Assembly: GCA_902797175.1 (NCBI GenBank)
Contig: CADBRX010000005.1
Coordinates: 1 to 38,052 of the forward strand
From: an uncultured Coriobacteriaceae bacterium
Lineage (GTDB): Bacteria; Actinomycetota; Coriobacteriia; Coriobacteriales; Atopobiaceae
Length of the DNA: 38,052 nucleotides
Direction of reading: 5' to 3'
How positions within the stretch are numbered: position 1 is the stretch's first letter; each line of letters begins with the position of its first letter. A program made the translations under genes and the position numbers. Under the pieces are notes generated by a model. That model saw only the letters and a list, made by a program, of their open reading frames with translations. It ran no database searches and was not told where the DNA came from. Below, in pieces: positions 5,917-31,700 of the stretch.

Positions 5917-6162
5917 GCGGATCGTTGACAGAAGCGCTGGGTATTTCGTCGACTGGGACTTGTAGAATCACTTCAGCGTATTGACAACCGAAAAAGGGAG
6001 GTCACCACGAGTCGACGTCGAGGGTTTCACGGTTGCGATTCATGCCTCAATCCTGATACCCATGCCAGCTGAGACTTGTATGTACGAAGGATTCCCTGCT
6101 TGGGAAAAGACTTTGGACAGACTTAAATTACCGTTCGCCTGCGGTGATATCAGCAGCTCAAT
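5917..6162. other. Intergenic stretch downstream of the Xre gene
   Basis: No convincing gene. A weak frame from TTG at 5981 to 6166 has an AGGGAGG internal to it and no family resemblance. No clear terminator stem was seen. Confidence 0.35.
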
Positions 6163-6443
6163 CTAGTATCCCAACAGCTCCTCGTGGAAGACCTAGAGAG
6201 CGTCGCACTTGGGCGTCCAGCTTGTCCCTGCGCGCTGCGATGCCCGGCCCTTGTTCGGTCAAGAGCCGTCCCTCGTGTGCGTCGCGTGCTGGCCTTGTAG
6301 CCCAGTTCGGTGACGAGGATGAGCAAGGCGAGCAGTCCGTTTATGTCGCCGATGCGGCAAGCATCCAGACGGAAGCATCGGAATGCGTTCGCCAACACGT
6401 GTATGTCAAACTTGCAGTCGTGCGTCGAGAGAGACACGCGCAT
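6163..6443 (-). pseudogene. Decayed third copy of the 161-aa island repeat family
   Basis: The minus strand clearly aligns with the 3' two-thirds of the copies at 2147 and 9699: the end reads HEELLGY before a TAG stop, and further in DACRIGDINGLLALLILVTE matches NACRINDVNSLIILLIRATD. The Tyr codon of ALYAFHEE has become TAG near 6193, and an extra base in the stretch matching GCTTGGCGTCC shifts the frame. The 5' third is unrecognisable. It lies at the border between the Xre module and the two-gene operon starting at 6634. Confidence 0.8.
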
Positions 6444-6633: not shown

Positions 6634-8691
6634 ATGTCACATGTTTCAATTGATGACATAGCCGAACTGTTTGGGATGCAACTAGGCGAAGCGCTTGACA
6701 TGTTGCGGGACAATCACGTCGTACCTAATGCTGCGGTTAATCGACCGTGGGGCTATCGTTTCAGCGGTGGTGACTTAGAGCGCGTTGGGAAGGCATTGAG
6801 GAACGTGCGTGATGACAAGGAGATTGTGGCTGAGATTGAAATCGCCGATATCGAGAAAGTGACGGACTTACCTCATGCAACGGTGTGCAAGGCATATGGT
6901 CTGTCCGAGAATGCTGAAACGCTTCCTGCGCCCATGTTTCATGAGGGGATTGAGGAGATTGCCCGGCTCAGAGGTTTAAGACGGCGTGCGGATGAGCTCA
7001 AGTGGTTAAACGACACGAATTGCGCTCGTCGAGAACGTAATGCTGCAAAAGCTGAGGCGACTGAGCTTAAAGAAGCTATCGAATTGGTAAGGGCAGATGC
7101 CCAAAAGGAAAGGGAACGTGTCGATTCGCTCGAAAAGAAACTTGCAAAAGCGAATGCTGCAATTAGCAATCAGGACAAGGTGATTGGCAACAAAGAGAGG
7201 GAAGTAGAAAGCCTGCGGGCTCAGCTTGCAACGCTTAGGAGCACGCTCTCTCAAACCCAGTCTGAACTAAGGGGATGCCAGGAAGAACTCAGTCGCGGGC
7301 GATCTGAGTTTATAGAACAGGCTTCGCGTCTTGCTAATTCATCACTGAGAGTTACTGAGCTTGAGGAACAAATCAAGGAGTTGAGGCGGTCTCAACCGTC
7401 GCGTGACGAACTCATTGTCTTAAAGATGTGGGCGGTCGAGTTCTGGAATCGTTGGCTTGATGCCGACGAATCCGTTTGCAATCGCGTTGACTATACCGTC
7501 CAAGCGCTTGCAAATTTTTTGTCGAAACGCCAGGAGGTTGCATACAAGACGCTATTTGGAACAGGGACTCTCTCATATGACCAATTAAGGGAAGACGCGG
7601 ATCTCCTCAATCTCATGAAGCAGTTAGGCTTTGGTAATGACATTCACCCCACCGGTTACACGCATCCCGGTGTCATTGCCTATTACACGCTTCGTTACGA
7701 GCTGGGTTATGCCTTCGAGTACTACGAGATCTACCGTCGTGTTTTTGAGACTCTTAGAGACGGAGATGGCGTTGGTGTACTTTCGATGGGGTGCGGACAA
7801 GGCTTGGACTATTGGGGTCTACGTTGCGCACAGGCGGCGCTAAATCGTCGGGATGTCCCAGTGCGCTGGCACGGAGTCGACTTGGAGAAGTGGCCTGACC
7901 AGGTGCTTGATGACGATACGACATTATATGAATATGGCACTGACCTCCTTGATTTCATCGGGCATGAGGATTCCCTACGCTCATCGGTGCTGATGTTTCC
8001 AAAAATCATTAGTGAGCTGCCGATGAACGTGATTGAGCGCCTAGCTGAATGGCTTGAGCGGGTAGAGTTTATGGAACCGGTGCACTATCTTTGTATCGCT
8101 CATACGGAAAAGAATAGGCTGGGCGGCCTATATGAATACGACGTTCAAGGTTTTGAGGAGTCGGTCGCCGTTAAGAGCGCAAAGCTAATTGACGCCTTCA
8201 TCAAGGGGGCGGGCAACCAGGGCTATGTGAATCTGGGGCCAGTTAGTCCAGACGTGACAAACGTGCAAGATAGTGCGAATGCTCCAAAGCTTATCTCTCG
8301 ACAGTACAGAGTCAAATGGTCTAGTAAGATGGCCGAAAGAAAATATGACTTCTTAGCTTACGAGACCTCTTTAAGCACTCGAAATGTAGTTGTGGGCGGC
8401 ATCATGCCTTTTGGCGCGGAGATGCAAACATGCTTCAATGTGCGTGATATTGGCAAGGAATGTTGCCCAGACTATGTGGCGGTGAACGGGGGCGACTGCG
8501 CATCCGAAGGGAAACATGAGGGCTGCCCAAGACAATGTCCCCTGTATAGAAATCCACGCTTTATGACCGATAGGATGGCTTACCAGATTTATCGCGTCGA
8601 GTGGAAACGACCAAAGCATCTCGAGCTCCTTGCCTCGAAAGCGCCGGCATTTGCTCCAAATCCGAAGTTTGACGAAGATATTCCCTTCTGA
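6634..8691 (+). CDS. HTH/coiled-coil/methyltransferase-like protein with SSB-type tip
   Basis: A 685-residue protein of no family I recognise. Residues 4-30 and about 70-105 look like two small helix-turn-helix units (VSIDDIAELFGMQLGEALDM). Residues 118-255 are a long charged coiled coil. Residues 380-420 hold a Rossmann-like motif, VLSMGCGQGLDYWGL, followed by HGVDLEKW, as in SAM-dependent methyltransferases. Six cysteines (600, 610, 611, 622, 631, 635) form a likely metal or Fe-S cluster. The last nine residues, PKFDEDIPF, match the acidic tip of single-stranded-DNA-binding proteins, which docks repair and replication enzymes; no OB-fold is visible. GGGGAGC precedes the ATG. A DUF1848 gene follows 45 bases later. 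The base composition is lower in GC than in neighbours, suggesting transfer. Confidence 0.7.
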   Translation: MSHVSIDDIAELFGMQLGEALDMLRDNHVVPNAAVNRPWGYRFSGGDLERVGKALRNVRDDKEIVAEIEIADIEKVTDLPHATVCKAYGLSENAETLPAPMFHEGIEEIARLRGLRRRADELKWLNDTNCARRERNAAKAEATELKEAIELVRADAQKERERVDSLEKKLAKANAAISNQDKVIGNKEREVESLRAQLATLRSTLSQTQSELRGCQEELSRGRSEFIEQASRLANSSLRVTELEEQIKELRRSQPSRDELIVLKMWAVEFWNRWLDADESVCNRVDYTVQALANFLSKRQEVAYKTLFGTGTLSYDQLREDADLLNLMKQLGFGNDIHPTGYTHPGVIAYYTLRYELGYAFEYYEIYRRVFETLRDGDGVGVLSMGCGQGLDYWGLRCAQAALNRRDVPVRWHGVDLEKWPDQVLDDDTTLYEYGTDLLDFIGHEDSLRSSVLMFPKIISELPMNVIERLAEWLERVEFMEPVHYLCIAHTEKNRLGGLYEYDVQGFEESVAVKSAKLIDAFIKGAGNQGYVNLGPVSPDVTNVQDSANAPKLISRQYRVKWSSKMAERKYDFLAYETSLSTRNVVVGGIMPFGAEMQTCFNVRDIGKECCPDYVAVNGGDCASEGKHEGCPRQCPLYRNPRFMTDRMAYQIYRVEWKRPKHLELLASKAPAFAPNPKFDEDIPF

Positions 8692-8736
8692 GGGGCGGAC
8701 ACTGTCTGAGAACGATTGAAATAAGGAGGAAGCCGC

Positions 8737-9678
8737 ATGATAGTAAGTGCTTCTCGTCGAACTGACATCCCCGCCTTTTACTCCGAGTGGTTTGAGCGCC
8801 GCGTGCAGGAAGGCTTCCTTTACGTCCGCAACCCAATGAATGTTCATCATGTAAGTGAGGTTAGTCTTACTCCTGATGTGGTTGACTGCATCGTCTTCTG
8901 GACCAAGAACCCTATCCCGCTCATGAAGCGACTGGACTCGTTTGCGAACTTCTCGTATTACTTCCAACTGACCCTCACGGGGTACGGGCATGACGTGGAG
9001 CCGAACGTGCCGGACAAGAAAGACGTACTGATCCCAGCGATCAGGCGTCTGTCAGAGCAGATTGGCCCCGAGCGTGTCATCTGGCGCTATGACCCCATTG
9101 CTTTCACGCCAAAGTACACGATGGAGTATCACCTGCACGCGATCAGCGAGATTTCTCGCATGCTAGAGGGCTGGACGGAGAAATGTGTCATCAGCTTCGT
9201 GGATGGATATGCTTACAATCGCAAAGCACTTGCGGATATCGGAAACGAGGACGTTCGGGACAATCAGTTGCTCGAGTTCTGCAAGCAGCTTGCCGAGACG
9301 GTACACGCCCACAACATGTCTGTGGCGACCTGCTCTGAGAAGGTGGACCTTGACGCAGCCAGTATTGAGCACAATGCTTGTGTGGACGCTCGGTTGATTG
9401 AACGTATCACGGGTAGGACGTTGCATGTGGGTAAAGACAAGTCCCAGCGCCTGGAATGCGGATGCTTCGCGAGCATTGACGTGGGTTCGTACAACACTTG
9501 CGGAGCTGGATGCCGCTACTGTTACGCGCGGCGGAGCGAAACGGCGACAGCGAAGAACCTACTTAGGCATGACCCCAGCTCGCCGATGCTCTGCGACCAG
9601 CTTGGACCTGACGATGTCGTCCATCCCCGCAAGATGCGCTCTCTGTTTGTGAACAATGTGCAAGAGTCGCTTTTCTGA
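8737..9678 (+). CDS. DUF1848 family radical-SAM-like protein
   Basis: A 313-residue protein that opens with the hallmark of the family, SASRRTDIPAFY at residues 4-15, then IVFWTKNP near 50, a segment PERVIWRYDPI, and a C-terminal cysteine module: C241 and C243, then SIDVGSYNTC255 and C259, C262 in a CxxxCxxC arrangement followed by YA. That spacing is the radical-SAM Fe-S ligand pattern, here unusually at the C-terminal end, which is typical of DUF1848. The reaction is unknown; relationship to spore photoproduct lyase-type repair enzymes is only suggestive. AAGGAGG lies 7 bases before the ATG. It is the second gene of an operon with the 685-residue SSB-tip protein. Confidence 0.78.
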   Translation: MIVSASRRTDIPAFYSEWFERRVQEGFLYVRNPMNVHHVSEVSLTPDVVDCIVFWTKNPIPLMKRLDSFANFSYYFQLTLTGYGHDVEPNVPDKKDVLIPAIRRLSEQIGPERVIWRYDPIAFTPKYTMEYHLHAISEISRMLEGWTEKCVISFVDGYAYNRKALADIGNEDVRDNQLLEFCKQLAETVHAHNMSVATCSEKVDLDAASIEHNACVDARLIERITGRTLHVGKDKSQRLECGCFASIDVGSYNTCGAGCRYCYARRSETATAKNLLRHDPSSPMLCDQLGPDDVVHPRKMRSLFVNNVQESLF

Positions 9679-9698
9679 AGCCTGGGGATAGGCGCAAT

Positions 9699-10184
9699 CT
9701 AGTACTCCAGCAGCTCCTCGTGGAAGGCATAGAGGGCGTCGCGCTCGGCGTCCAGCTTGTCCCTACGCTCCGCGATGTTCGCCCTCGCCTCGCGAGAGAG
9801 ACGCCCCTCGTGCGAGTCGCGCACGCCGGCCTTGTAGCCCAGCTCGGTGGCGCGGATCAGCAGGACCATGAGGCTATCGACGTCGTTGATTCGGCAAGCG
9901 TTGAACATGTACGCGGACGAGCGCGCGATGCTCTGGGCGTAGCTGTGGATGTCTCCCTCGGTCTGGAACCAGGGGTCGGGGTCCTCGCCCTCGAGCTCGT
10001 CGGATATCATTCCCAGCACGAGGTACTTCACGAGGGACTCGAACGTTATGACCGTGCCCGTGTCGCACTCTTTGACCCAAGCGGTGTCTATCGGGTGCTC
10101 ATCGAACTTGTCTAGCAGGTTTGGCGCCAGCTCCGACTGCTCTGCCCAGAGCGCGTTGCTCTTGTGGTTTGGGGTGTCTGCCAT
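9699..10184 (-). CDS. Island repeat-family protein, copy 3 (161 aa, unknown)
   Basis: Same length as, and about 78% identical by hand count to, the product at 2147-2632, with the core SYAQSIARSSAYMFNACRIN and the last dozen residues unchanged. Differences cluster in residues 42-80, where charge changes are frequent, so the family core is under constraint while this part drifts. The stop lies 20 bases past the DUF1848 stop, convergent to it. The homology to copy 1 continues through about 200 bases upstream, including the palindrome and part of a hairpin. Function unknown; no signal peptide or membrane segment. Confidence 0.75.
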   Translation of the reverse strand: MADTPNHKSNALWAEQSELAPNLLDKFDEHPIDTAWVKECDTGTVITFESLVKYLVLGMISDELEGEDPDPWFQTEGDIHSYAQSIARSSAYMFNACRINDVDSLMVLLIRATELGYKAGVRDSHEGRLSREARANIAERRDKLDAERDALYAFHEELLEY

Positions 10185-10268
10185 TGTTCCGTCCCTTCGT
10201 TTGTCGCCGTCCTGCCGGGCGGCGTGTGGATGGGAGAGGGATTCTACGCTGCGCGGGTGCCCGGTTCC

Positions 10269-10283
10269 TCAGCCGCGAGCTAA
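10269..10283 (-). promoter_or_regulatory. Palindromic element, copy 2 (TCAGCC-GCG-AGCTAA)
   Basis: Counterpart of the element at 2723-2737, 85 bases upstream of copy 3 of the 161-residue gene. Two changes weaken the left arm. The flanking CCGGTTCC and, on the other side, TTGACA are kept. Confidence 0.4.
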
Positions 10284-10339
10284 ATTGACAGGATGTGGGG
10301 CCTGCGGTGCTGGTGCGCCTCGGGCTATCTGTGTGACGT

Positions 10340-10510
10340 GATGGCGGGGAAGCAGAAGAGCCTCCCCGCTATGCTGCGTCCGAGCCACCTTGTCGCCGCA
10401 TCTGCCTACAGAAGTACTGTAGGAAGGATCTCAGGAGGTATCGCTGCCCGTATTGCGGGTGGATCCACCTCACCGGCAAGCCGCTTCAGGAGCATCCGAA
10501 GGAGGCTTAG
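10340..10510 (+). pseudogene. 5'-truncated zinc-ribbon protein fragment
   Basis: An open frame with no usable start runs from 10337 to a TAG at 10508. From about 10391 it reads as genuine protein: CRRICLQKYCRKDLRRYRC, then PYCGWIHLTGKPLQEHPKEA. The RYRCPYCGWIHLT part resembles the end of small phage-encoded zinc-ribbon proteins. A T-tailed terminator follows 20 bases later, as for a real gene end. Its 5' part was probably replaced by the duplicated upstream region of copy 3, whose homology to copy 1 ends near 10380. Confidence 0.5.
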
Positions 10511-11616: not shown

Positions 11617-11700
11617 ATGAGGCGTGTGATCACCGGTTTGGGATCTGATGACCCAGCCATGCCGCTCGTCCAGTGTCGTATCAAGAGTGCACAATGTTAG
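11617..11700 (+). pseudogene. Truncated 5' end of a gene, 27 codons
   Basis: A perfect AAGGAGG site 5 bases before an ATG starts MRRVITGLGSDDPAMPLVQC, which then runs into a stop at 11698-11700. The first eight residues resemble how several small cupin-type proteins begin, but this is only an impression. Strong translation signals before so short a frame suggest the front of a gene whose body was deleted. The following 230 bases show no convincing continuation. Confidence 0.35.
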
Positions 11701-11932
11701 TGCAATTCTGCTCAAATAACGCACTGAGAGAGTGCAAAGTATTGCCACTGACGGGTATGTCGTGGCGGACAATATCGAATTCGGACATGGGCGCACGATT
11801 CCGCTGTGGACATTTGGACTCAGCTATTGAGGGGCCTTGACGTGTATGACGCGTCTTCGGCATCAAAGTTGCGCCTACAATTGATGCCATCTAGCGACGG
11901 CGTGCTTTTGCTTGCGGGAGGTACGTGATGGC
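11701..11932. other. Unexplained stretch before the cupin gene
   Basis: Mixed composition, lower in GC than its surroundings, with no recognised gene on either strand. It ends in GGGAGG at 11916-11921, the ribosome site of the cupin gene. Confidence 0.35.
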
Positions 11933-12253
11933 ATGACCGCGTCGCGCCACATGGTGCGTGCGGAGGACTGGGGCGTCAAGGTCCAGACCTGCATCTACAC
12001 GCGCGGCTTCCGCCATGCGTGGCACAGCCATGCCTACGCGCACGGGATCTTTGTGCTGGAAGGCGTGCTGCGCAACGACCTTAACCCCGGTCAGGACTCC
12101 TTCTATGGACCGGGCGAGTTTGCGCTGACGCCCGCGCACGCCGAGGTGCTGCATGAGCCGGCTCCGGGCGACGGGAGCGTGCGCTACCTCTTTGTCGGCG
12201 ACGGACCGTTTGACTTCATCGTGGACGGCGTGGACCTCTACGGTCGCGGCTGA
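11933..12253 (+). CDS. Small cupin-domain protein (106 aa)
   Basis: I chose the ATG at 11933 (MTASRHMV), 11 bases after GGGAGG. A single beta-barrel cupin is visible: motif 1 is partial, HAWHSHAYAHGIFVLEGVLR near residues 29-48, with histidines that could bind a metal; motif 2 is around YGPGEFALTPAHAEVLHEPA. The protein has no DNA-binding domain. Its ligand cannot be read from the sequence. It stands alone and is followed by a hairpin of the GGGGAGTATCCC type, which probably ends its transcript. Confidence 0.65.
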   Translation: MTASRHMVRAEDWGVKVQTCIYTRGFRHAWHSHAYAHGIFVLEGVLRNDLNPGQDSFYGPGEFALTPAHAEVLHEPAPGDGSVRYLFVGDGPFDFIVDGVDLYGRG

Positions 12254-12263
12254 CTAGAAGGGA

Positions 12264-12296
12264 GTGACTCAAAGGGGAGTATCCCATCTGAGTCAC
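12264..12296. repeat. Intergenic hairpin, type B core, GTGACTCA arms
   Basis: GTGACTCA at 12264-12271 and TGAGTCAC at 12289-12296 enclose the core AAGGGGAGTATCCCAT. Ten bases past the cupin stop; probably a terminator. A member of the family also present at 16875, 16914, 18342 and 18383. Confidence 0.65.
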
Positions 12297-12323
12297 TGAC
12301 GAGAAGAACCTTGGTGCACGGAC

Positions 12324-12472
12324 GTGCGGTCCCCAGCCCGCACAACCTGCCCCGCGAGACCCGAATCCGCCCGCCAGACCACGTTTGTGCAGTCCCCAGC
12401 CCGCACAACCTGTCCCGCGAGGCCCGAAACACACCGTCAGACCACGTTTGTGCAGTCCCTAGCCCGCACAAA
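12324..12472. repeat. Three tandem hairpin units, 63-bp period
   Basis: The words GTGC(G/A)GTCCC(C/T)AGCCCGCAC recur at 12324, 12387 and 12450, each forming a stem (GTGCGG/CCGCAC, TTGTGC/GCACAA, GTTTGTGC/GCACAAAC) around a short loop. Spacer sequence between the units is also repeated (CCTG, CCGCGAG, CCCGAA and CCAGACCACGTT). The stems lengthen from first to last. Noncoding; not a CRISPR array, since spacers are similar. Confidence 0.6.
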
Positions 12473-12482
12473 CCCCAGGCCA

Positions 12483-12509
12483 CACACGAAAGGGTCCCAC
12501 CCCAGTGTG
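12483..12509. repeat. Intergenic hairpin, type A core, CACAC arms
   Basis: CACAC at 12483-12487 and GTGTG at 12505-12509 enclose GAAAGGGTCCCACCCCA. It uses the core seen at 12693, 14870 and 19418 with a different arm. Confidence 0.55.
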
Positions 12510-12593
12510 CTGACAACGGCCAACCGACAACCCATTGTGCCACAGGTCGCTGACAAAAGCGGGGCCATGCCTTCCAGAGAGTAGTATGCTGTT

Positions 12594-12695
12594 ATGCTGT
12601 GGTGTCCGTTCGATAACGACGGCAGGTCGAGTGGCTACTTTAGGTGCAACAAGTGCGGAAAGATCTTCCGCAGGCCTGAGGCCACGCGCAACTGA
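12594..12695 (+). CDS. Possible 33-aa zinc-knuckle peptide or remnant
   Basis: The frame reads MLWCPFDNDGRSSGYFRCNK then CGKIFRRPEATRN. One Cys is at residue 4 and a CxxC at residues 18-21, followed by GKIFRR, like the zinc ribbon at the start of IS1-type transposases or small phage proteins. The ribosome site is poor. Its TGA is the first three bases of the 32-bp arm of the following long palindrome. It may be the leftover of a mobile element. Confidence 0.35.
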   Translation: MLWCPFDNDGRSSGYFRCNKCGKIFRRPEATRN

Positions 12696-12758
12696 CTCAA
12701 AGGGGTCCCACCCTTGTGAGTCAAATTGACTCACAAGGGTGGGACCCCTTCGAGTCAC
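12693..12758. repeat. 66-bp palindrome of two inverted type A hairpins
   Basis: The arm at 12693-12724 is the reverse complement, with one mismatch, of the arm at 12727-12758; only two bases separate them. Each arm is itself a hairpin, TGACTCA ... TGAGTCA around AAGGGGTCCCACCCTTG. It ends 18 bases before the permease start codon, so the transcript leader would fold strongly there. Confidence 0.75.
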
Positions 12759-12776
12759 CATGGGGGGGATGGGGAA

Positions 12777-14111
12777 ATGGCTGAGACAGAGGCGCCGCGC
12801 GCGCTGAGGAGAGACCTTGGCTGGCCGACAGCCGCGTCCATCGTGGTCGGCTGCGTCATCGGCGCGGGCGTCTTCTTCAAGCCCTACGCCATCTACCAGA
12901 CCACGGGCGGCGCCCCGGGCATGGGGATGCTCGCCTGGGTGCTGGGCGGCCTCATGAGCATCCTGGGCGCCCTCACCTTTGCCGAGGTCGCCATCCTCAT
13001 CCCCAAGACGGGCGGTATGGTCGCCTATCTGGGCGAGGTCTTTGACGAGCGCCTGGGCTTTCTGGCCGGCTGGATGCAGGTCGTCATCTTCTATCCCGCG
13101 TTTCTGGCGGGCTACGGGGTCAAGGTCGGCACCGAGCTGGCCGAGTACGTGGGCCAGGCGCTCGCGCTTCCCATCGCGATTGCCGTGATCGCGGCGCTGG
13201 TGGCCGTCAACTCGATGGGCTCCAAGGCAGCGGGAAAGGCCCAGGTGGTGGCTACCATCTGCAAGCTCGTGCCGCTCGTGCTTCTCATGGTCTTTGGCTT
13301 CCTGCGCGGCTCGGGCGGAAACCCCGTGCTGACGCCGCTCGTGGGAGAGGGAAAGAGCGTCCTGGGGACGCTCGGGTCCACGCTGCTTGCGGTGCTCTTT
13401 GCCTTTGAGGGGTGGACCAACGTGGGCACCATCGCCGGCGAGATGAAGGACCCCGCGCGCGACCTCCCGCGCGCCATCGTGGGCGGCGTCTCGCTCATCA
13501 TGGCGGTCTACCTGGCCATCAACGTGGCCTACCTCTGGGTCATCCCCGCAAGCGAGCTCATGGGCATCGAAAGCCCCGCCGCCGCGGTCGCGACCAAGCT
13601 CTTTGGCACGTCGGGCGGCACGCTCATCAAGGTGGGCATCATCATATCGGTCATCGGCGCCGGAAACGGCTTTCTCATGTCGGGCTCGCGCGTGGCGTAC
13701 CAGCTTGCCGAGCAGGGCGCGCTGCCGATGAGCCCCGCGCTCGCTCGCCTCAACGACCGCGACGTGCCCGCCAACTCCATCGCGCTCATCGGCGTGCTGG
13801 CCTGCCTGTATTCGCTCATCGGCGAGTTTGACCTCCTGACCGACCTGGGCGTCTTTTCGTGCTGGGTGTTCTACACGCTCACGTTTGCGTGCGTCATGAG
13901 GCTGCGCCAGACTCATCCGGAATGGCCGCGCACCTATCGCGTGCCGCTCTATCCCGTGGTGCCGCTGCTCGCCATCGGAAGCGGCCTCTACGTCATCGTG
14001 AGCCAGCTCTTCTTCTCGGGGCAGCGCGGGCTGCTGATGAGCCTGTGCAGCGTGGGCATCACGCTTCTGGGACTGCCCGTCTACTATGCGGTGAGGCGCC
14101 GTGTCCGCTAG
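12777..14111 (+). CDS. APC-family amino-acid permease
   Basis: I chose the ATG at 12777 (MAETEAPR) after a G-rich site; the longer frame begins inside a palindrome. The 444-residue product has 12 predicted membrane helices. Residues 14-40 carry the substrate-binding turn of APC transporters (SIVVGCVIGAGVFFKPYAIY), followed by GMLAWVLGGLMSILGALTFAE with the conserved acidic residue in helix 2. The helix 6 unwinding motif FAFEGWTNV is near residue 212. It resembles serine/threonine and LAT-type exchangers, so it likely moves neutral amino acids across the cytoplasmic membrane; substrate not provable. The phosphatase gene that follows starts inside its last codons. Confidence 0.85.
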   Translation: MAETEAPRALRRDLGWPTAASIVVGCVIGAGVFFKPYAIYQTTGGAPGMGMLAWVLGGLMSILGALTFAEVAILIPKTGGMVAYLGEVFDERLGFLAGWMQVVIFYPAFLAGYGVKVGTELAEYVGQALALPIAIAVIAALVAVNSMGSKAAGKAQVVATICKLVPLVLLMVFGFLRGSGGNPVLTPLVGEGKSVLGTLGSTLLAVLFAFEGWTNVGTIAGEMKDPARDLPRAIVGGVSLIMAVYLAINVAYLWVIPASELMGIESPAAAVATKLFGTSGGTLIKVGIIISVIGAGNGFLMSGSRVAYQLAEQGALPMSPALARLNDRDVPANSIALIGVLACLYSLIGEFDLLTDLGVFSCWVFYTLTFACVMRLRQTHPEWPRTYRVPLYPVVPLLAIGSGLYVIVSQLFFSGQRGLLMSLCSVGITLLGLPVYYAVRRRVR

Positions 14112-14871
14112 CGTGGGCGCGCTGCCGCACGCCGTCGAGGGCTTTGACCCCGAAGTCAACCTGCGCGACCTGGGCGGCTGGCCCACGGCCGACGGGCGGG
14201 TGGTCCGCCCGGGGCTCATCTTCCGCAGCTCTCGCCTGGACGTGCTGGACGTGGACGAGCTGGTGCGGCTGCAGCGGCTGGGGCTTGCCTGCGTGGTGGA
14301 CCTTCGTCCGGAGGGCGAGGCGGCCGCGCATCCCGACCCGCGCTTTCCCTCCATCCGACACGCGCAGGCCGACGCGGGGCGAGAGGTGCTTGCCACGGAG
14401 GCGCTGGACGGTGCCTCTCCCGACGAAGTGGTCGACGCGCTCGCGGCAAACACGGCGGCGATGGCCTTTGGGAACGCTGGTGCCGCCAAGGTGCTTGGAC
14501 TTCTCGAGGAGGGCGAGGCGCCCCTGCTCTTTCACTGCAACTCCGGACGCGACCGCTCGGGCGTGGTGGCCATGGTCGTGCTCATGGCGCTGGGGTGCTC
14601 CGACGACGTCCTTCTGGCCGACTACCTGCTGACAAACGCGTACCGTGCCCGCTCGCTGGCGTATCTGGAGGAGCGGTATGCCGACGTGCTGCGGCTGGGG
14701 GAGGAATACCGCCCGCTGGTGACGGTGATGGCGGGCGTGCTTGAGCAGACGGGCCACGCCGTGCTTGACGCCATCGACGCCGCCTATCCCTCACGCGCGG
14801 CGTACCTGCGCAAAGAGTACGGCCTGGACGAGAGGCGCCTCTCCCTTCTCCGCGCCCGCTACCTGCGCTGA
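14101..14871 (+). CDS. Tyrosine/serine protein phosphatase, DSP-like
   Basis: A 256-residue protein with the catalytic loop FHCNSGRDRSGVVA (nucleophile C146, R152), the Cx5R signature of the bacterial Y_phosphatase3 group (as in Mycobacterium PtpB). The N-terminal part has the family's NLRDLGGW at residues 18-25, followed by RVVRPGLIFRSSRLDVL, and VVDLRPEGEA as the general-acid/phosphate loop region. Start is GTG at 14101, 11 bases inside the permease gene, so the two are translationally coupled. No signal peptide. Targets may be phosphotyrosine proteins or phosphoinositides; the link to amino-acid uptake is only suggested by the operon. Confidence 0.82.
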   Translation: MSASVGALPHAVEGFDPEVNLRDLGGWPTADGRVVRPGLIFRSSRLDVLDVDELVRLQRLGLACVVDLRPEGEAAAHPDPRFPSIRHAQADAGREVLATEALDGASPDEVVDALAANTAAMAFGNAGAAKVLGLLEEGEAPLLFHCNSGRDRSGVVAMVVLMALGCSDDVLLADYLLTNAYRARSLAYLEERYADVLRLGEEYRPLVTVMAGVLEQTGHAVLDAIDAAYPSRAAYLRKEYGLDERRLSLLRARYLR

Positions 14872-14927
14872 TACGAAAGGGTGGGACCCTTGCGTATCGA
14901 TACGAAAGGGTGGGACCCCTTCGTATC
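14870..14927. repeat. Two direct type A hairpins, GATACG arms
   Basis: Units at 14870-14898 and 14899-14927 are direct repeats; each is GATACG ... CGTATC around AAAGGGTGGGACCC. They lie between the convergent phosphatase and TrmL genes and overlap the phosphatase stop by two bases, so they are probably bidirectional terminators. Confidence 0.7.
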
Positions 14928-14930
14928 GCG

Positions 14931-15521
14931 CTAGGGCATGTGGGGGTAGCCGAGCTGGTGCAGCGCCTCGTACACGACGATCGCCACGGCGTTTGAGAGG
15001 TTGAGCGAGGTGATCTGCCCGGCGCGCGGATCCACGAAGTTGCCGCAGATGTCGCGCGGCATGTCGGGATGGAGCTCGCCAAAGCGCCGGTGCCAGCCGT
15101 CCGCGTCCACGAGCGCGTCGTCGCCCAGCATGGGGATCCGCTCGCAGCGCCCGGGGTTCGCGGCAAGAAGCCCCTGGTCAAGCCCTGCGCTCTCCTTGCC
15201 AAAGACGAGCCAGTCGCCGTCGTGGTACGCGGCGTCGCTGTACACACGCGGGCCGGCCTTGGTCAGCAGGTGCACGGACTCCGAAAGCCCGCCCTCGCCG
15301 CCCACCGACCGGTTCTGCGCGCAAAAGGCGTCCCACGACTCGTAGGTCCGCACGTCAAGGCTCTGCCAGTACGCCAGCCCCGCGCGCCGCACGGCGTCGT
15401 CGGACAGGCTGAACCCCATCGGCCCCACCAGGTGCAGCCGCGCACCCGTAAGCACGCAGGTCCTCCCGATGTTTCCGGTGTTTGCGGGTATCTCCGGCTC
15501 TACAAGCACGACGTTGAGCAT
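14931..15521 (-). CDS. trmL: tRNA (cytidine(34)-2'-O)-methyltransferase
   Basis: A SPOUT-class methyltransferase that 2'-O-methylates the wobble base of leucine tRNAs. Motif 1 is visible at the N-terminus, LVEPEIPANTGNIGRTCVLT (about residues 6-25), then LHLVGPMGFSLSD; motif 2 is LVFGKESAGLDQGLL; motif 3 is SLNLSNAVAIVVYEALHQLG near the C-terminus, forming the trefoil knot. I prefer the ATG at 15521 (MLNVVLVE) because AAGGGACG lies upstream and the family begins here; 196 residues, somewhat longer than the usual 155-160 owing to an insert near residues 55-85. Monocistronic, minus strand. Confidence 0.85.
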   Translation of the reverse strand: MLNVVLVEPEIPANTGNIGRTCVLTGARLHLVGPMGFSLSDDAVRRAGLAYWQSLDVRTYESWDAFCAQNRSVGGEGGLSESVHLLTKAGPRVYSDAAYHDGDWLVFGKESAGLDQGLLAANPGRCERIPMLGDDALVDADGWHRRFGELHPDMPRDICGNFVDPRAGQITSLNLSNAVAIVVYEALHQLGYPHMP

Positions 15522-23826: not shown

Positions 23827-23878
23827 ATTGGACTTCAACTAAGCGTACTGACATGTTACGCGAGGCAGGAAGGTGCCC

Positions 23879-26800
23879 ATGATGGATGAAACGCAGCAGG
23901 GAAAGCTTGCCCATCGCGTCACGGGTGCCAATATGTCCAGACGAGGGTTTTTGCGCGGCGCTGCGACGGTCGTGACCATGGGATTCTTGGAGCTCCTTCC
24001 GCGTGTAGAGGGCGGCTACCTCACTCCCGTGTACGACGCGCTCGGGACGTCGACGGCCTTGGCACTGGAGGGTAGCTCCTCGTTTACCGTCACGGTGGTT
24101 GGTAAAGGTGAGGTCGGCTTCCACGTGGTGGACGTCTCCACGAAAGACTCGTCAGGCAATTACGCACCAGTGTACCAAGCTACCGTCACCGTCACCTCGC
24201 GCTTCAACAATAAGAGGGTCTCTGGCAAGACTGACAAGGAAGGCAACGTCATTCTCTCGATCGAAAGCCTCTGCCCCGCGCGCGTAGCGGGCTCCACCAA
24301 TGACTACCAATGCAACGCGTCGATTTCCGTGACCACGGGCACCGACTCCCGGCCCCGTATGCGCGACTTCTCTGCTGGACTCGTCTCGTTGGAAGGCGCC
24401 TCTGGCGTCGTCATCGGGACTCACAAGCTCGACTCGAACGATTTCTATGTCGAGCGTTTCACATTTGACGACTGGGATGTTCACTACACGAAGAATAGCT
24501 TTCTTCGGAGCAAGATGAACACTTCGGACCATGCTATCGACATCCGTGTGGCAGGCGTCACAGGCAACGTGACGGGAACACTCACGGTCTTCGATGCCAA
24601 GGAGGGCACAAAGCTCTTGGGGCCTTTCCCAGCTAATGCGACCTACGATGCGTCAACCACGTATGCGTCTGCCCGCGTGACGGGCAAGTTCCTTGAGTCG
24701 GGGCATAGTCAGTGCTTCATCAAGGACTCCGTCATCCTGCAATACGACTATTCCTATGGCGGGAAGACCAAGACCGACAAGATAGAGATGAGCATTGAGG
24801 ATACGCCAATGGACAAGGCGGTGGTGCCCTTCTACCCGCTGCCCTTCGATGCGGACTCGATCTTTTCGTTCTCCGCGAGCGGGGATTGGCCCTGCTTCAA
24901 CGGACTAAGCTTCTCACTGCTTGACCCGGGCTTTCCGCTGACGGTGTCGTTCACCCCGATCACTCTCATCGTAGGCATCGGGCTCGATGCCTCCATGGTG
25001 AATGACAAGGGCAAGTTGTCCGCGACTGCTTGGATGAATGAGCCTCACCTCAACGCCATTCGGCGCCTCAAGAACACGAGCAACAGCATGGACTACCGAA
25101 TGCGGCTGCGCGAGAAGAACAAAGCTGCCGTTGAAGAGGACGAGAACACCTCAAAGCAGAACAAGCACATCCTGGGAAACTTCGACCTGACGATCATTGC
25201 GCGCATCGTGGCATGCATCCAGTGGAGCGGTCTCAAGTCAGATCCAGACTACGGTTACAAGAAACTCTTTGACGGGAAGGGCAACTTCGAGGTAGGACTG
25301 TCCCTCTCAGGAGGCTTCACCGTCTCGGGCACAGTCGGTCCCGTTCCCATGTTCTTCTCCCTCACGGCGGGCGTGGCGGCCACTTTCGCAGGAATGCTGG
25401 ACATCGCCAAGGAGATAGCGGAGTCGACGAGAGAGCTCGCACTCAAGGATGCTAATGTCAACCTCTCCGGTGCCGTCTCCCTCAACTTCAAGTTCTTCCT
25501 CACGGTGAGCGGGGGAGTGGGTTACAGTGGCCTCTGCACCCTTGGCATCAGCGCGACGGTTACCATCCCGATATACTTCGGGTGGAAAGAAAAGAAGACG
25601 AGCGGCCAGTCTGACCCGCACATCGCCATCGGTGTCACCTTTCTGCTCGAGGTCGTCTTCCAGTGCCTGCTCTTCAAGGTCTCTGGGCAGATCTGGTCGT
25701 ATGCAAAGAACCCCTGGTTCGACAACTGGAAGAAGGGTGATGGCGCACTTGATGAAGCCTCGGTTGGCGATGATGCCTGGATTGCCGCAGGGGTGGAGCC
25801 GCGATTCTTGCTGGACCACGAAGGTGAGCTGCGCCACAGCTTCATCGCCGCCAATGACGGCACGCTGTTGAGGGGCAGTGACGACCCCTTTGCCGATATG
25901 ATTCCCGTCACAAACGACCAAATGCATGGTGCGCGGGAGGCTGACGCAACAAAGGTTGCGTCTGACGAGGAGTCCCTGGACGCGGCTTCTGAGATGGCGC
26001 GTTTCGTAGCGGTGGAAACGGACGGTATGGAGAAAGTGTTCTTCCGCGCCGACGATAACACGTATGTCTACGTAGACAAGGCGCCCTGTGTGGTGATGGG
26101 GGAGGACGGCTCGGTCGTTACTGAGCTCGTTGACTGCCCAGGGACCAACACCTTCCGCTTTGTCGATGAGCCCCTGGCTGCACAGGCGGAGGATGTCGAG
26201 CTCGACGATCAGGAGGGTCCGACGGAAGATCTCCAGGCCCAGGATGCGCCGACGGACGAGGCGGGGGCTCAGGCTGTCCTGACGGAAGACCTTGAGGCCC
26301 AGGCTACTGTTGCGGAAGTGCCCGAGGCTTGGACGGACGAGTCGGACGACCCTGACTGGTCGGGAGTTGCTGCAGCCGTAATACCTAACGCCGACATCAC
26401 AGATGGGCTACCTGCAGTTGAGCTTACTGCCGATGAGGCTCCTATGGACGAGATCTCCATGGACATGCTCCCCGCTGACGAGCTTCCCGCTGACGAGCTT
26501 CCCGCGGATGAGCCTCTCACAGAAGAGGCTCCTGAATACAAGGTTTCCGAGGACGAGGCAGAAGCCTTGCGGGCCCAGTCCGATGAAGACGCCCCGTTTG
26601 CGGGCGACCCGTTCCTTGGCTTTGCGCTTCCTGCGGGCGAGGAATACAGCTACCAGTACATTGAGGGAAAGACGACCGGAAACTACTGCGGCATTGCGGG
26701 AATCGCAGACATTGCCGAGCATGATGGAGTCACGCCAAGCGTTGACGTCGTTATCTATGATGAGGTATTCAGCGACCCACGCCAGCGTGTGGTAAGCATT

Positions 26801-28789
26801 GAGGGAGTTCCGCACCTCTTCCGTATCGTGACCATATCGTATCCCACCGCTACGGGTGAGCCGCGATGCAGGAGTCGCGTGGTGGCTTCGCGTTTTGACC
26901 TTGCGTCCCGGACGTGGGGCCAGCCCAAGGTTATCGAGTATGGAAGCGGCGACAAGGACCTTCCGCGCCTTGACATATTTGATTACGACTTTGACATCGT
27001 CGCCCGTCCTGCGTCGGCCCTGTGGACCAAGGGTGCTTCCGCGTGCCTCGTAGTTACGGGTGGCCTTCGTCCCAACGGAGATAACACATCCGTCTACGAT
27101 GCGTTTGCCGCGCCCACGGTCTCCGTGGTGATCCTAGACCAAAGTCTGCGCGTCATGCACTGCTCGGTAAAGCGTGTTGACACGTCTCTTTATCCTGACG
27201 GCAACAAGCACACGATCCTTTGCCCGCGCATTGCCGACGGCTTTGCCTATGGCAGCTTGAGCGGTGCGATTGCCTACGCGTTCCTGCACAGGAGCGCTAC
27301 GGAGGCGAATCTGCTTATGTCCTCTGCGGCAAGCGTCTCGTTTGGCGTTGGGTACTGCTACATTCGTGATGGGTACTTCAATCTGTCCGCCAACCTCAAG
27401 GATGAGGTGACACTTCCCTCAACGGTGACGGACATTGAAGTCGTTGCAGGGGGTTCACTCGAGAAGTCGTACGACTCCCTGCTCACATTGCTCTTCAATC
27501 GGTCGGACGGCTTTGACGTCTGCTCTGCGATGCTTCCCGAACACAAGGGCTTTGACAGCGTGGTGATCAAGCACAACGTGAGCAGCGACGACCCCCTTCC
27601 CGAGATCAAGCCTTGGTACTACCATGGTTCGTTCCTCTTTGTGAAGGAGCGTCCAGCCACGGAGAATGGACAGGAAAAGGACTTCTATCTCTATGAGGGG
27701 ACATTTGACCCCACGAGCGACGGACAGAAAAGCCTGACGCCCAGGCGCGTGGACAAGGCAGGAATAAAGAGCGGCAGATTTTCCGTGAGTCCCTCGGGGA
27801 GCTACCTCTTCTACTACGAAACGTTCCGTGGCAATCCCGGGGATGACATTGATCCAGATACTGGCGAGCACACCCCGACGTATGACGAGGTCTATCGGAT
27901 CATGGCGTCGCGTTACGTGGACGGCACCTTCTGCGAAGATTTCCCATTCTGCGAGCTCAACCACCCCGTTGACCACTTTGCCATTATGGACATCACTCAG
28001 GACGCGGGCACGTTCCTTGCCACCCAGATCACCGACGCCAGCAAGAGCCTCGCCTCTCTGCGCTACATTGCGGTGCCGCTCTCACTTTCGGCTGAGGTGG
28101 AGGCCATGACGCAGAAGGAAGACTTTGTCTACGCCGGCAAGAAGTGCCCATTCCAAGTCGATGTCCGCAACCACGGCAACCTCATCATCGAGGGCTTTGA
28201 CCTCGAGCTGTTAGACTCTGCCGGCGCCGTGATCGACACCGTCGAGATTGGCAAGATCGACCCAGACAACATCTATCTGACTGCGTCAAGCACTAGCTGG
28301 GCAGAAAACCTCATGGGCGCTTCTGACCCCGAGACCCCCTTACGCCTCTCTGCGGCAGAGGAGCAAGGCCTTCTCATGCCGGGAAAGCTCGTCAAGTACG
28401 AGGTGGAGTTCAACATCCCCGAGAACTGGTCGGGGGAGAAGACCGTGCGCGTTCGGGTCGCAAACGCCCGCACACCTGACCTCGAGGCAATGAGTGAAGA
28501 CGGCAACGTGGTCCGACACTTCCATGAGGGTGTGGACTCGTCGATCTTGCTCCATGGTGCTTCAGCCGAGGCGCTTCTCTACGATCCAGAGGAGTCCCAG
28601 AAAAAGAATGAGGAAGAGAACAAAAAGCGCAGGGAACAGCTGCCCAAGACTGCTGACCTCCTGAGTCCGCTGGATGCTGTCGGGCTTGCGGCGGGTGGCT
28701 TGGGGGCGCTGCTCGCTGGATACTCCGCGCGTCGCGTCGAAGTGGAGCGTGAACAGTTAGAGGGAGAAGGCGAGGATCTCGAGAAATGA
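23879..28789 (+). CDS. Tat-exported cell-wall-anchored giant surface protein (1636 aa)
   Basis: Start at ATG 23879 with GGAAGG upstream. Residues 19-45 are a twin-arginine signal, MSRRGFLRGAATVVTMGFLE, with the RR at 21-22. No catalytic domain is apparent. Residues about 45-640 are beta-rich, with Ig-like segments such as FTVTVVGKGEVGFHVVDVST, and a long glycine-rich part (LSLSGGFTVSGTVGPVPMFF). Residues 764-904 form an acidic, degenerate-repeat linker (PADELPADELPADEPLTEEA). Then a beta-rich part and, near 1390-1560, CARDB-like segments (FQVDVRNHGNLIIEGFDLEL). The tail has LPKTA (1588-1592), a hydrophobic helix and YSARR, a variant sortase signal. The next gene overlaps its stop by four bases. 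Confidence 0.75.
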   Translation: MMDETQQGKLAHRVTGANMSRRGFLRGAATVVTMGFLELLPRVEGGYLTPVYDALGTSTALALEGSSSFTVTVVGKGEVGFHVVDVSTKDSSGNYAPVYQATVTVTSRFNNKRVSGKTDKEGNVILSIESLCPARVAGSTNDYQCNASISVTTGTDSRPRMRDFSAGLVSLEGASGVVIGTHKLDSNDFYVERFTFDDWDVHYTKNSFLRSKMNTSDHAIDIRVAGVTGNVTGTLTVFDAKEGTKLLGPFPANATYDASTTYASARVTGKFLESGHSQCFIKDSVILQYDYSYGGKTKTDKIEMSIEDTPMDKAVVPFYPLPFDADSIFSFSASGDWPCFNGLSFSLLDPGFPLTVSFTPITLIVGIGLDASMVNDKGKLSATAWMNEPHLNAIRRLKNTSNSMDYRMRLREKNKAAVEEDENTSKQNKHILGNFDLTIIARIVACIQWSGLKSDPDYGYKKLFDGKGNFEVGLSLSGGFTVSGTVGPVPMFFSLTAGVAATFAGMLDIAKEIAESTRELALKDANVNLSGAVSLNFKFFLTVSGGVGYSGLCTLGISATVTIPIYFGWKEKKTSGQSDPHIAIGVTFLLEVVFQCLLFKVSGQIWSYAKNPWFDNWKKGDGALDEASVGDDAWIAAGVEPRFLLDHEGELRHSFIAANDGTLLRGSDDPFADMIPVTNDQMHGAREADATKVASDEESLDAASEMARFVAVETDGMEKVFFRADDNTYVYVDKAPCVVMGEDGSVVTELVDCPGTNTFRFVDEPLAAQAEDVELDDQEGPTEDLQAQDAPTDEAGAQAVLTEDLEAQATVAEVPEAWTDESDDPDWSGVAAAVIPNADITDGLPAVELTADEAPMDEISMDMLPADELPADELPADEPLTEEAPEYKVSEDEAEALRAQSDEDAPFAGDPFLGFALPAGEEYSYQYIEGKTTGNYCGIAGIADIAEHDGVTPSVDVVIYDEVFSDPRQRVVSIEGVPHLFRIVTISYPTATGEPRCRSRVVASRFDLASRTWGQPKVIEYGSGDKDLPRLDIFDYDFDIVARPASALWTKGASACLVVTGGLRPNGDNTSVYDAFAAPTVSVVILDQSLRVMHCSVKRVDTSLYPDGNKHTILCPRIADGFAYGSLSGAIAYAFLHRSATEANLLMSSAASVSFGVGYCYIRDGYFNLSANLKDEVTLPSTVTDIEVVAGGSLEKSYDSLLTLLFNRSDGFDVCSAMLPEHKGFDSVVIKHNVSSDDPLPEIKPWYYHGSFLFVKERPATENGQEKDFYLYEGTFDPTSDGQKSLTPRRVDKAGIKSGRFSVSPSGSYLFYYETFRGNPGDDIDPDTGEHTPTYDEVYRIMASRYVDGTFCEDFPFCELNHPVDHFAIMDITQDAGTFLATQITDASKSLASLRYIAVPLSLSAEVEAMTQKEDFVYAGKKCPFQVDVRNHGNLIIEGFDLELLDSAGAVIDTVEIGKIDPDNIYLTASSTSWAENLMGASDPETPLRLSAAEEQGLLMPGKLVKYEVEFNIPENWSGEKTVRVRVANARTPDLEAMSEDGNVVRHFHEGVDSSILLHGASAEALLYDPEESQKKNEEENKKRREQLPKTADLLSPLDAVGLAAGGLGALLAGYSARRVEVEREQLEGEGEDLEK

Positions 28790-31700
28790 CATGCAAGGTG
28801 GCAAGAAGGTACTGGTGGGAAGATCGTGACAAGTGCGTGACGCTTCCTGGGCACCTGCTTGTGCTTCTTGTAGCGTTGATTGCCTGCTTTGCATTGCTAC
28901 CCTGTCGCAGTGCGCTTGCCGTGATAGGCGTGACCAAACCCTGGGAATACACGCTAGATGGCAAGGGACAAGCCACCATAACGGCCTTCAACCCCAAGGG
29001 CACGGTTGCTAACCTCGAGGTTCCCTGCACCATCGACGGTCATGAAGTCGTTGGTATCGCAAACTCCGTCTTTGCGGGTGACACAGCCCTGAGCACCGTC
29101 ACCCTCCCAAGTAGTATTACTTCGATGGGTGGCTCAGTATTTGCTGACTGCACCAATCTAGTGTCAGTGGACCTCGGAGCCATGGAGGAACTGGAGCGCA
29201 TCCAGACGGCAAGCTTTGATGGCTGCACGTCGCTTACCTCGATCACCATTCCGGCAAAGGTGAAGATCATTGGCTCCTCGGCATTCCAAGGGTGTAACTC
29301 CCTCAAGAAGGTGACATTCCTCTCACCGTATAACCCTTATGACGACCCGTCGGTCTACCTCACCATTGGCGCCTACGCGTTCGAAGGGTGCACTGCGCTC
29401 GAGGCCATCGAGATTCCCGCGTGGACGGGCAAGATAGAGATGCAGGCCTTTCTCAACTGCACAAGCCTCAGCAAGGTTACCTTTCTGGGTGACGTCCTGA
29501 CCGAGCTTGGGACGATGGCATTCGCTGGCTGCATTTCACTTGAGGAGGTTTGCTTGCCAGATGGCGACGTCTATCTGGGGAGGCAGTCATTCTCGGAGTG
29601 TGCTTCGTTGAGGTTTGTCGCCTTCACCAGCAAGCCCACCACCATTGGAGACGCCGTCTTTGAGGATTGCGGCAACCTAAGCCTTGTCGCCATTCCTGAA
29701 GGCACGGAGCCTTCCGACTGGTGGAAGCTGGGCATTCCATCTGACGCATCCTTTCTGGTGATCAGGGTAAATGAGGATGTTTCTCTCGACACCGTGACGG
29801 TCGTGGAGGCAATACGCGCGGAAGAAAGACAGCAGATTGACTTACCGGCCTCGGTCGGTACGCGACCCATTACTGAGATTGGGGAGTTTGCGTTTGCGGG
29901 TGACAGCGGTTTGTGGCTCGTAACCTTTCCGGACGAATGCCACGTTTCATCACTGGGGCGTTGCGCCTTCCAGGACTGCACGGGATTAAGGTCCATCACC
30001 ATCCCCGAAAGCGTCGAAGCGCTCGGAAATGGTGTCTTTAGCGGGTGTTCCTCCCTCGGTATTGTGAGCTTTGGAACAAACCAGCTTGAGATTGTTCCTC
30101 ATGGTGCGTTCGGTGAGTGCGCTTCTCTCGAGCGCATCCATCTTCCCGAGGGGCTGAAGACCATAGAGAGAGACGCGTTCTTCAATTGCACCTCTCTCAA
30201 AGAGATGTACCTTCCTGATTCGCTCACAACTATCGAATGCAATGCAATTTACTGTGACAATACGACGATGCCCATCAAGACCATGCGCATGCCTGACTCC
30301 GATGCGGCGATGAGCGTATGCAAGACAAGCGGCGGGGTCGAAAGTGACGCTTCGTTCTATGGCTCGTGGGACATGAAGAACATGACCTTCTTGGTTACCT
30401 GTGGGTCTTGGTTCGAGGCAAATTGGCTGAATCCTCGTTTGGACGGTACGTCAACTACAGCAACGCTTCCAACAACGACGCGCACCTACGTGCCCGTTGA
30501 CCTCGCCGAGGAATCGGTCAGCATCACCGAGAAGAAGAACCCCACCTTCAACGGTGCGCCCCAAGGGCCCGCGCTGACCATCTCGCGCTGGTATCACAGC
30601 TTGGAGCTGCCGACGGATTACAGCTTTGTGTACACCGAGGAAAGCATCAACGCTGGTGCCACCTCGGCCATCATGCGGGGCGATGGGGTCAGGTTCAAGG
30701 GCGAAGTTGAGATTGCATATCAGATTGAGCCGGCTAACCTGAACGATTGGAAGGACGCGCTGCGGGCAGACCCACTCATCTCGGGTTGCTTCTGGGACTA
30801 TGACGACTGGACGCCGATTCCCTCCAAGCTGGTCATCGATGGATTTGAGAGCGGCTTGTACTCCTATACGATGAAGGCGGCGGACTATCGCATCGATGGG
30901 TATGCCAACAACTCAAGTGCAGGGGAGGCAGCCATTGCCCTGATGGGCGAAGGAAACTTCACCGGGTCATGCGACCTTACCTTCACCATCTCAAAGCGAG
31001 ACCTGGCTACCGAGGCCGTGGTGGAAGAGATTGGTGACCAGTGGTACACGGGTGAGGAGATCAAGCCAACGCCTTCCGTCAGCGTGCCCAATCGCAATGG
31101 CAAGCCAATCGAGCTTGGCGAGGAGTACGGTGACTTCTCGCTTTCTTACGAGAACAACGTGAACGTGGGGACTGCGACCGTGGTCATCACGGCGCTTGAT
31201 GAAGCCAACGTGTCAGGTAGCACGAGAGCGACGTTCAAGATCAAGTCGGTTAATCTTGACGATGCGACGATTGCTCCCGTTGACGATCAGGTTTTCACGG
31301 GCACAGGGATACAACCCGAGCTCGATGTGCGCATTGATGGAGAGCAACTCTCGCCAGGCAAGGCGTATACGGTCACGTACGAGGGCAATGTCAACGTGGG
31401 GACCGCGACGGCCACGCTCGTTGGCGTCGAACCTTACTGTACGGGCACCAGGACTGTGGAGTTCCAGATCGTGCCCAAGGAAGTGACGGTGACCGCTCAG
31501 GATATCTCGAAGGTTTATGGGACAGATGACCCAGAGCTCACAGCTGTGGTTGAGGGGCTTATCGGCTCGGACCAGGTTGCCTATGGGCTCTCGCGCGAGG
31601 CAGGGGAGGATGCCGGGACCTATGCCATTACCGCAACGGGCGATGAGCTGCAGGGCAACTACCACGTTACGTATGAGGATGCCGTGTTCACCATCGAGTG

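Follow-up and report, generated by a model that had tools for sequence, protein, structure and literature searches.

A methyltransferase-like gene and a DUF1848 gene form a recurrent pair, possibly a mobile defence module, in an uncultured Coriobacteriaceae bacterium

Our analysis of a 38,052-nucleotide stretch of DNA from an uncultured Coriobacteriaceae bacterium (assembly GCA_902797175.1, contig CADBRX010000005.1, positions 1 to 38,052; hereafter the window) revealed a pair of plus-strand genes that recurs in several bacterial phyla. We read the pair tentatively, with a confidence just short of even, as a mobile two-gene module that modifies nucleic acid at replicating DNA, or repairs it by modifying it, most likely in defence against mobile elements. 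The first gene (gene 1, P0001, 6634..8691, 685 aa) encodes a protein with a helix-turn-helix (HTH)-like N-terminus, a coiled coil, a class I methyltransferase-like core, a cysteine cluster and a C-terminus resembling the tip of the single-stranded DNA-binding protein (SSB). The second (gene 2, P0002, 8737..9678, 313 aa) encodes a DUF1848 protein predicted to form a barrel like that of radical S-adenosylmethionine (SAM) enzymes. A two-gene module at 6634-9678 had been proposed from the letters of the window without database searches (the sequence-only reading), and both open reading frames (ORFs) are indeed open and intact, with 45 bases between them and a strong ribosome-binding site, the Shine-Dalgarno sequence AAGGAGG (8723..8729, plus strand), ahead of gene 2. 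Neither the kinds of enzyme nor a mobile, defence-like setting is new; what is undescribed in the literature searched is their combination, and the pairing of a methyltransferase-like protein with DUF1848 has apparently not been described so far.

Whole-genome searches with gene 1, and then with a small alignment, found relatives only for the core domain (residues ~330-660), and direct scans of genome, viral and plasmid collections with gene 1 returned nothing save one distant phage match; the family was reached via the whole-genome searches and via DUF1848. The core relatives were found in genomes G112, G108, G065 and G125, of the same family, and on a contig from a human-gut phage collection, and wherever the sequence suffices DUF1848 comes next. 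The scan for DUF1848 yielded 80 genomic and 21 viral loci. A gene 1 relative stood at about 20 of 104 distinct DUF1848 loci, in almost every case immediately upstream in the same orientation, the two genes overlapping or lying a few bases apart (mostly -4 to +14 bases); the exceptions are locus L089, with one intervening gene, and L021, with reversed order. When 50 DUF1848-bearing genomes were searched whole, the gene 1 type was present in 11 and lay beside DUF1848 in all 11, two of these genes being away from the originally found locus and one being separated by one intervening gene. Genes of this type that were found independently of DUF1848 (the window's own genome G000, G065, G108, G112 and G495) each adjoin a DUF1848 gene, and no other recurrent neighbour of DUF1848 is as common as the gene 1 type. 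The co-occurrence that the sequence-only reading had proposed as a check is thus seen in several phyla: the hosts of the pair belong to Actinomycetota (the window's own group), Bacillota, Bacteroidota and Fibrobacterota, and phage contigs carry it as well. Its distribution is scattered (4 of 398 genomes of the class). Gene 1 apparently needs DUF1848, which for its part often occurs alone. On a DUF1848 tree the presence of the partner was clustered, with 12 changes against 19.4 after shuffling and none of 500 shuffles as low, and the partner has been gained or lost repeatedly along the tree; the DUF1848 of the window groups with four others in a supported clade, every member of which has the partner.

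The gene 1 family falls into two clades, one with the motif FPKSISE and C-terminal cysteines, the other with N-terminal cysteine pairs. The N-terminal parts of the relatives differ: a superfamily 1 (SF1) helicase in L021, a weak RnlA match in L104, unrelated extensions in L009 and L015, and none in others; at L008 the upstream gene has S1/CSD-TOTE domains. At L009 (G108, 7803-8148) the relative is broken near its C-terminus, where the frame ends early and the rest continues in another frame. Downstream of the pair at L015 (G065), after a small phosphoesterase-like gene, two AAA domains and an M41-type peptidase domain are combined in one protein of 1,178 residues (11641-15174).

Gene 2 is a full-length DUF1848 protein (PF08902), with 333 bits against a cut-off of 30.5 over positions 1-262 of 262 (E 2e-99), as the sequence-only reading had named it. 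Its model, with a predicted local distance difference test (pLDDT) value of 93, is nearest in fold to radical-SAM enzymes, namely pyruvate formate-lyase (PFL) activase (Z 9.6), Elp3 (9.1), spore photoproduct lyase (8.9), RlmN (8.8) and viperin (8.0), with Cfr and peptide-modifying radical-SAM enzymes also in the list; these Z values are modest, the best match covering 150 residues at 2.6 Å. A CX3CxYC motif (C255-C262, 9499..9522, plus strand), a radical-SAM-type cluster loop, stands at the C-terminal end of the barrel, and its residues C255, C259, Y261 and C262 are invariant in 45 of 45 DUF1848 sequences. In a pairwise profile comparison (p 3e-4) residues 248-269 resemble the part of SPASM-type radical-SAM proteins that forms the first strand and the cluster loop. 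The earlier label of a radical-SAM-like protein is supported by this predicted fold and the motif, and DUF1848 is predicted to be a radical-SAM-like barrel. The whole protein gave no match to the Pfam Radical_SAM family (PF04055) and the motif segment alone gave 13.2 bits against a cut-off of 29.5, for which reason gene 2 is called radical-SAM-like here and is not placed in PF04055. In radical-SAM enzymes the motif comes before the rest of the barrel, whereas in DUF1848 it comes after it. In the structural alignments residue 1 of DUF1848 corresponds to residue 71 of PFL activase, 134 of spore photoproduct lyase, 171 of RlmN and 119 of viperin, positions which presumably fall after the cluster motifs of these enzymes. 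This arrangement suggests a circularly permuted barrel whose first strand and cluster loop have moved to the C-terminus. A permuted DUF1848 profile matched radical-SAM profiles over no greater length than before, so it is from the structure comparison and the motif position only that the permutation is argued. Four further cysteines, C241 and C243 (9457..9465, plus strand) together with C199 and C215, are likewise invariant in 45 of 45 sequences, which suggests a second iron-sulphur (Fe-S) cluster.

The C-terminus of gene 2 reads QESLF (9661..9675, plus strand), fitting the pattern QxxLF. The bacterial consensus for binding the beta clamp is QL[S/D]LF or QxxLF, and it is present at the C-terminus of PolC (PMC12309361). 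After a conserved ERKVKSLK the tails of DUF1848 proteins run QLSIF, QLSLF, QISLF, QLTLW and similar. Among 91 tails the pattern Qx[STDGN][LIFM][FW] occurred in 44, where shuffling led us to expect 0.33, and the stricter QxxLF in 21 (0.45 expected). The last residues of gene 2 are of low confidence in the model, and the tail is probably flexible. A putative clamp binder beside PolC, DnaE and others, DUF1848 often ends in such a motif, as PolC does, though many of its tails deviate from the motif or have none. Since DUF1848 proteins without a partner (L017-L105) also often end in a QxxLF-like motif, the family as a whole may dock on the clamp.

The core of gene 1 (residues 330-536, 7621..8241, plus strand), which is common to all relatives, is predicted to be a class I methyltransferase fold: it has a Rossmann-like fold, a glycine-rich motif I and an acidic residue after strand 2, with GCG and GxD conserved, and the predicted structure matches many methyltransferases. 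What the sequence-only reading had taken for a Rossmann motif is this motif I (VLSMGCGQGLDYW, residues 382-394, 7777..7815, plus strand), whose S384, G386 and G388 are nearly invariant in the family. In the structure comparison the core was closest to human METTL17 (Z 15.1; 245 residues, root-mean-square deviation 4.1 Å), followed by yeast Rsm22 (Z 12.9) and by other methyltransferases at 11.4 or less. A true relationship to Rsm22 at the sequence level was sought by Pfam and by profile-profile comparison and was not found: matches to PF09243 (Rsm22/METTL17) stayed below the cut-off, with 1 of 20 members at E 0.083, and the profile-profile comparison gave p 0.048. Since kinship is not established by the sequence profiles, the resemblance is one of fold. 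METTL17 carries a 4Fe-4S cluster on C333, C339, C347 and C404 (PMC11046306), and both METTL17 and Rsm22 are mitoribosome assembly factors with such a cluster. Gene 1 shares with them a C-terminal cysteine cluster, present as predicted earlier in a six-cysteine segment (residues 600-635, 8431..8538, plus strand; cysteines 600, 610, 611, 622, 631 and 635), in which C631 is nearly invariant in the family. The human spacing C-x5-C-x7-C-x56-C is unmatched by these cysteines; the spacing of the Rsm22/METTL17 cluster itself varies between human and yeast. Gene 1 further differs from METTL17/Rsm22 in its HTH-coiled-coil half and its SSB-like tip.

In the AlphaFold2 model of gene 1 the core and the coiled coil are confident and the remainder is low (mean pLDDT 68). 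The long coiled coil described before is predicted at residues 128-252 (7015..7389, plus strand), with helices at 128-179 and 185-252 and SMC-like coiled-coil matches; matches of gene 1 to SMC, Jet, Lamassu and DndD reflect coiled-coil similarity only. Of two HTH-like units claimed for the N-terminal region (residues 1-127, 6634..7014, plus strand), the first stands with fair confidence (residues 11-30, pLDDT ~80) and the second does not, residues 60-128 being mostly below 50. The N-terminal region had no match across the 140 genomes of the family, and the HTH-coiled-coil half is specific to the window's copy.

Gene 1 ends in PKFDEDIPF and a stop codon (8662..8691, plus strand), which the sequence-only reading had likened to an SSB tip. 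In E. coli the SSB C-terminal tip is DDDIPF (PMC5872125). No SSB gene was found in the window's own genome assembly, which is incomplete (81.6%), and congeneric genomes were therefore used for comparison. SSB was found in 15 of them, each time ending [VI]YDEDIPF, and the last six residues of gene 1 (DEDIPF, within KFDEDIPF) are identical to this end, 6 of 6. Across 18 genomes of the genus (~45 Mb) the pattern [DE]DIPF-stop gave 20 matches, nearly all of them SSB genes, and a backwards control pattern gave none in the same genomes; the matches outside SSB were gene 1, one with TGG in place of the stop, and one short degenerate frame. That frame (L170, G137 contig C47, 284-301) ends AYDDDIPF-stop, with no recognisable SSB gene and no ORF of at least 80 aa. 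The match of gene 1 is far beyond chance, and residues 672-685 are predicted to be disordered (pLDDT <50) and exposed rather than buried. Unlike in SSB, the tip is carried by a methyltransferase-fold protein without a recognised oligonucleotide/oligosaccharide-binding (OB) fold. It is absent from every aligned relative with a readable C-terminus, an outcome that the sequence-only reading had itself named as counting against its proposal. The tip is therefore a lineage-specific addition and, not being a feature of the family, cannot explain the general role of the module. Irrespective of that role it could be a functionless chance C-terminus, as its presence in a single protein would allow; we consider this very unlikely, given six identical residues at the exact C-terminus behind a predicted disordered stretch and a pattern otherwise nearly confined to SSB in the 18 genomes, with the short frame of G137 as one further match. 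The more general replication-docking signal, judged from sequence, is the putative one on the DUF1848 tail rather than the SSB-like tip, and it was missed by the sequence-only reading.

Genes of defence and mobility were found near many relatives of gene 1, including AbiH (L016), SIR2_2 (L089), HsdR (L100), HsdM/HsdS with an integrase (L102), an Eco57I-type methylase with an integrase (L007), phage integrases (L008, L109) and a serine recombinase (L104), while L096-L098 are prophage-like contigs. PADLOC lists its DUF1848 model as a defence-reverse-transcriptase-associated gene (RTasDUF1848), and gene 2, as a full-length DUF1848, matches it at 2.3e-46; the window differs in that the partner is a methyltransferase-like gene and not a reverse transcriptase, and no reverse transcriptase was present among the neighbouring proteins scanned in the window. 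At L010 (G125 contig C352, 1377-2648 and 2760-3956) a UG26 reverse transcriptase stands divergently beside a gene 1 relative at a contig end. A general link to UG26 was rejected: ten regions of the class with UG26-like genes, including two contigs of the window's genome, have neither gene, which makes L010 a single case. The UG26-class genes of the window's genome lie on contigs C164 (L191) and C180 (L192); read from either end, C164 (9,946 bases) shows the same ORFs, as a perfect inverted duplication would, which may be an artefact of assembly. Defence is likely to be the role of the pair. The guess at a DNA-modification, repair or anti-phage module made in the sequence-only reading gains from the mobile, defence-like setting of many relatives, and loses its argument from the tip as a general explanation.

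In the mechanism that we propose, the methyltransferase-fold protein of gene 1 would bind SAM and hold a metal or Fe-S site in its C-terminal part, and DUF1848 would be a radical-SAM-like enzyme, probably with two Fe-S clusters, that performs radical chemistry. DUF1848 would be tethered to the beta clamp via its tail, gene 1 would supply substrate recognition or methyl transfer, and the variable N-terminal part of gene 1 would select the trigger or target. In the window's copy the SSB-like tip might additionally dock gene 1 on SSB-binding host proteins, e.g. RecO, PriA or primase, and the substrate of the joint reaction would be DNA, or else RNA synthesised at the fork. Sequence and its statistics provide the evidence for the conserved operon, the invariant motifs, the SSB tip that matches the host and the enriched tail of DUF1848, and structure prediction that for both folds. 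A bolder version, which we think rather unlikely in its entirety, is a type of mobile defence not described before, where a clamp-riding permuted radical-SAM enzyme and a METTL17-like Fe-S methyltransferase install or remove an unusual modification on replicating foreign DNA, with exchangeable N-terminal sensors and a copied host SSB tip.

Several observations weigh against a defence module acting at replicating DNA. The fold nearest to gene 1, METTL17/Rsm22, works on ribosomes rather than DNA. The QESLF of the window is without the preferred leucine at the second position. No integrase or known defence gene lies directly beside the window's pair, and the defence genes near its relatives are individual cases. 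Most of the sampled DUF1848 genes are without a gene 1 partner, and DUF1848 must therefore have a function of its own. Finally, the literature searched contains no mention of DUF1848 or PF08902, and neither protein has a known activity.

The strongest competitor to that reading, which we judge unlikely though still to be taken seriously, is that the pair is directed at RNA or the ribosome, gene 1 being like Rsm22/METTL17 and DUF1848 like RlmN, Cfr and Elp3, so that rRNA or tRNA would be modified and translation perhaps stopped or protected in infection. The leading folds of gene 1 and the presence of those three enzymes among the DUF1848 matches agree with it, as does the weakly seen part of one relative (L104) that resembles RnlA, an RNase toxin. 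Against this, gene 1 and Rsm22 are not linked by sequence profiles, the Pfam match being below cut-off, and both the SSB-like tip and the clamp-like tail speak for DNA; the SF1 helicase fusion and the restriction-modification neighbours are neutral or in favour of DNA. Those same two tails would also suit the factors of a mobile pair that serves DNA repair and not defence, DUF1848 acting somewhat like spore photoproduct lyase (among the top folds, Z 8.9) on damaged bases and being brought in by clamp and SSB partners. In the fold search, however, several radical-SAM families come out level, and the scattered distribution of the pair, at 4 of 398 genomes of the class, and its frequent defence and recombinase neighbours would be unusual for house-keeping repair, which makes this account distinctly unlikely in our view. 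Radical-SAM and methyltransferase pairs are common in clusters for ribosomally synthesized and post-translationally modified peptides (RiPPs), and peptide-modifying enzymes are in the fold list; tailoring of a peptide or small molecule by the pair is nevertheless the least probable account, since no transporter or SPASM-like extension was recognised beside the pair (no systematic search was made for precursor-sized ORFs shorter than 80 aa), the gene that most often recurs next to DUF1848 is its partner, and both tails would be left unexplained.

The surroundings of the pair agree with the earlier description. Its GC content is ~0.50 against 0.57-0.69 nearby, and it sits between copies of one repeated gene family, a decayed one upstream (6156..6362, minus strand) and an intact, convergent one downstream (9692..10411, minus strand, with a 161 aa ORF at 9699-10184). 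The downstream copy and another at 2140-2865 are 81-87% alike over their two longest blocks. Elsewhere in the window the gene for a 1,638-residue protein without a Pfam match (23873-28789) overlaps by 4 bases the next one (28786-36468), which encodes 2,560 residues with BspA-type leucine-rich repeats and MBG domains.

A non-SSB protein that copies the exact SSB end of its host would be a natural probe of the repair proteins that are recruited by SSB tips. If true, the circular permutation would widen the known radical-SAM architecture and explain why the Pfam Radical_SAM model misses DUF1848. Through the pair DUF1848, a family widespread in gut bacteria, gains a partner, and with it radical SAM as its likely chemistry and the sliding clamp as its likely workplace, each of which is directly testable.

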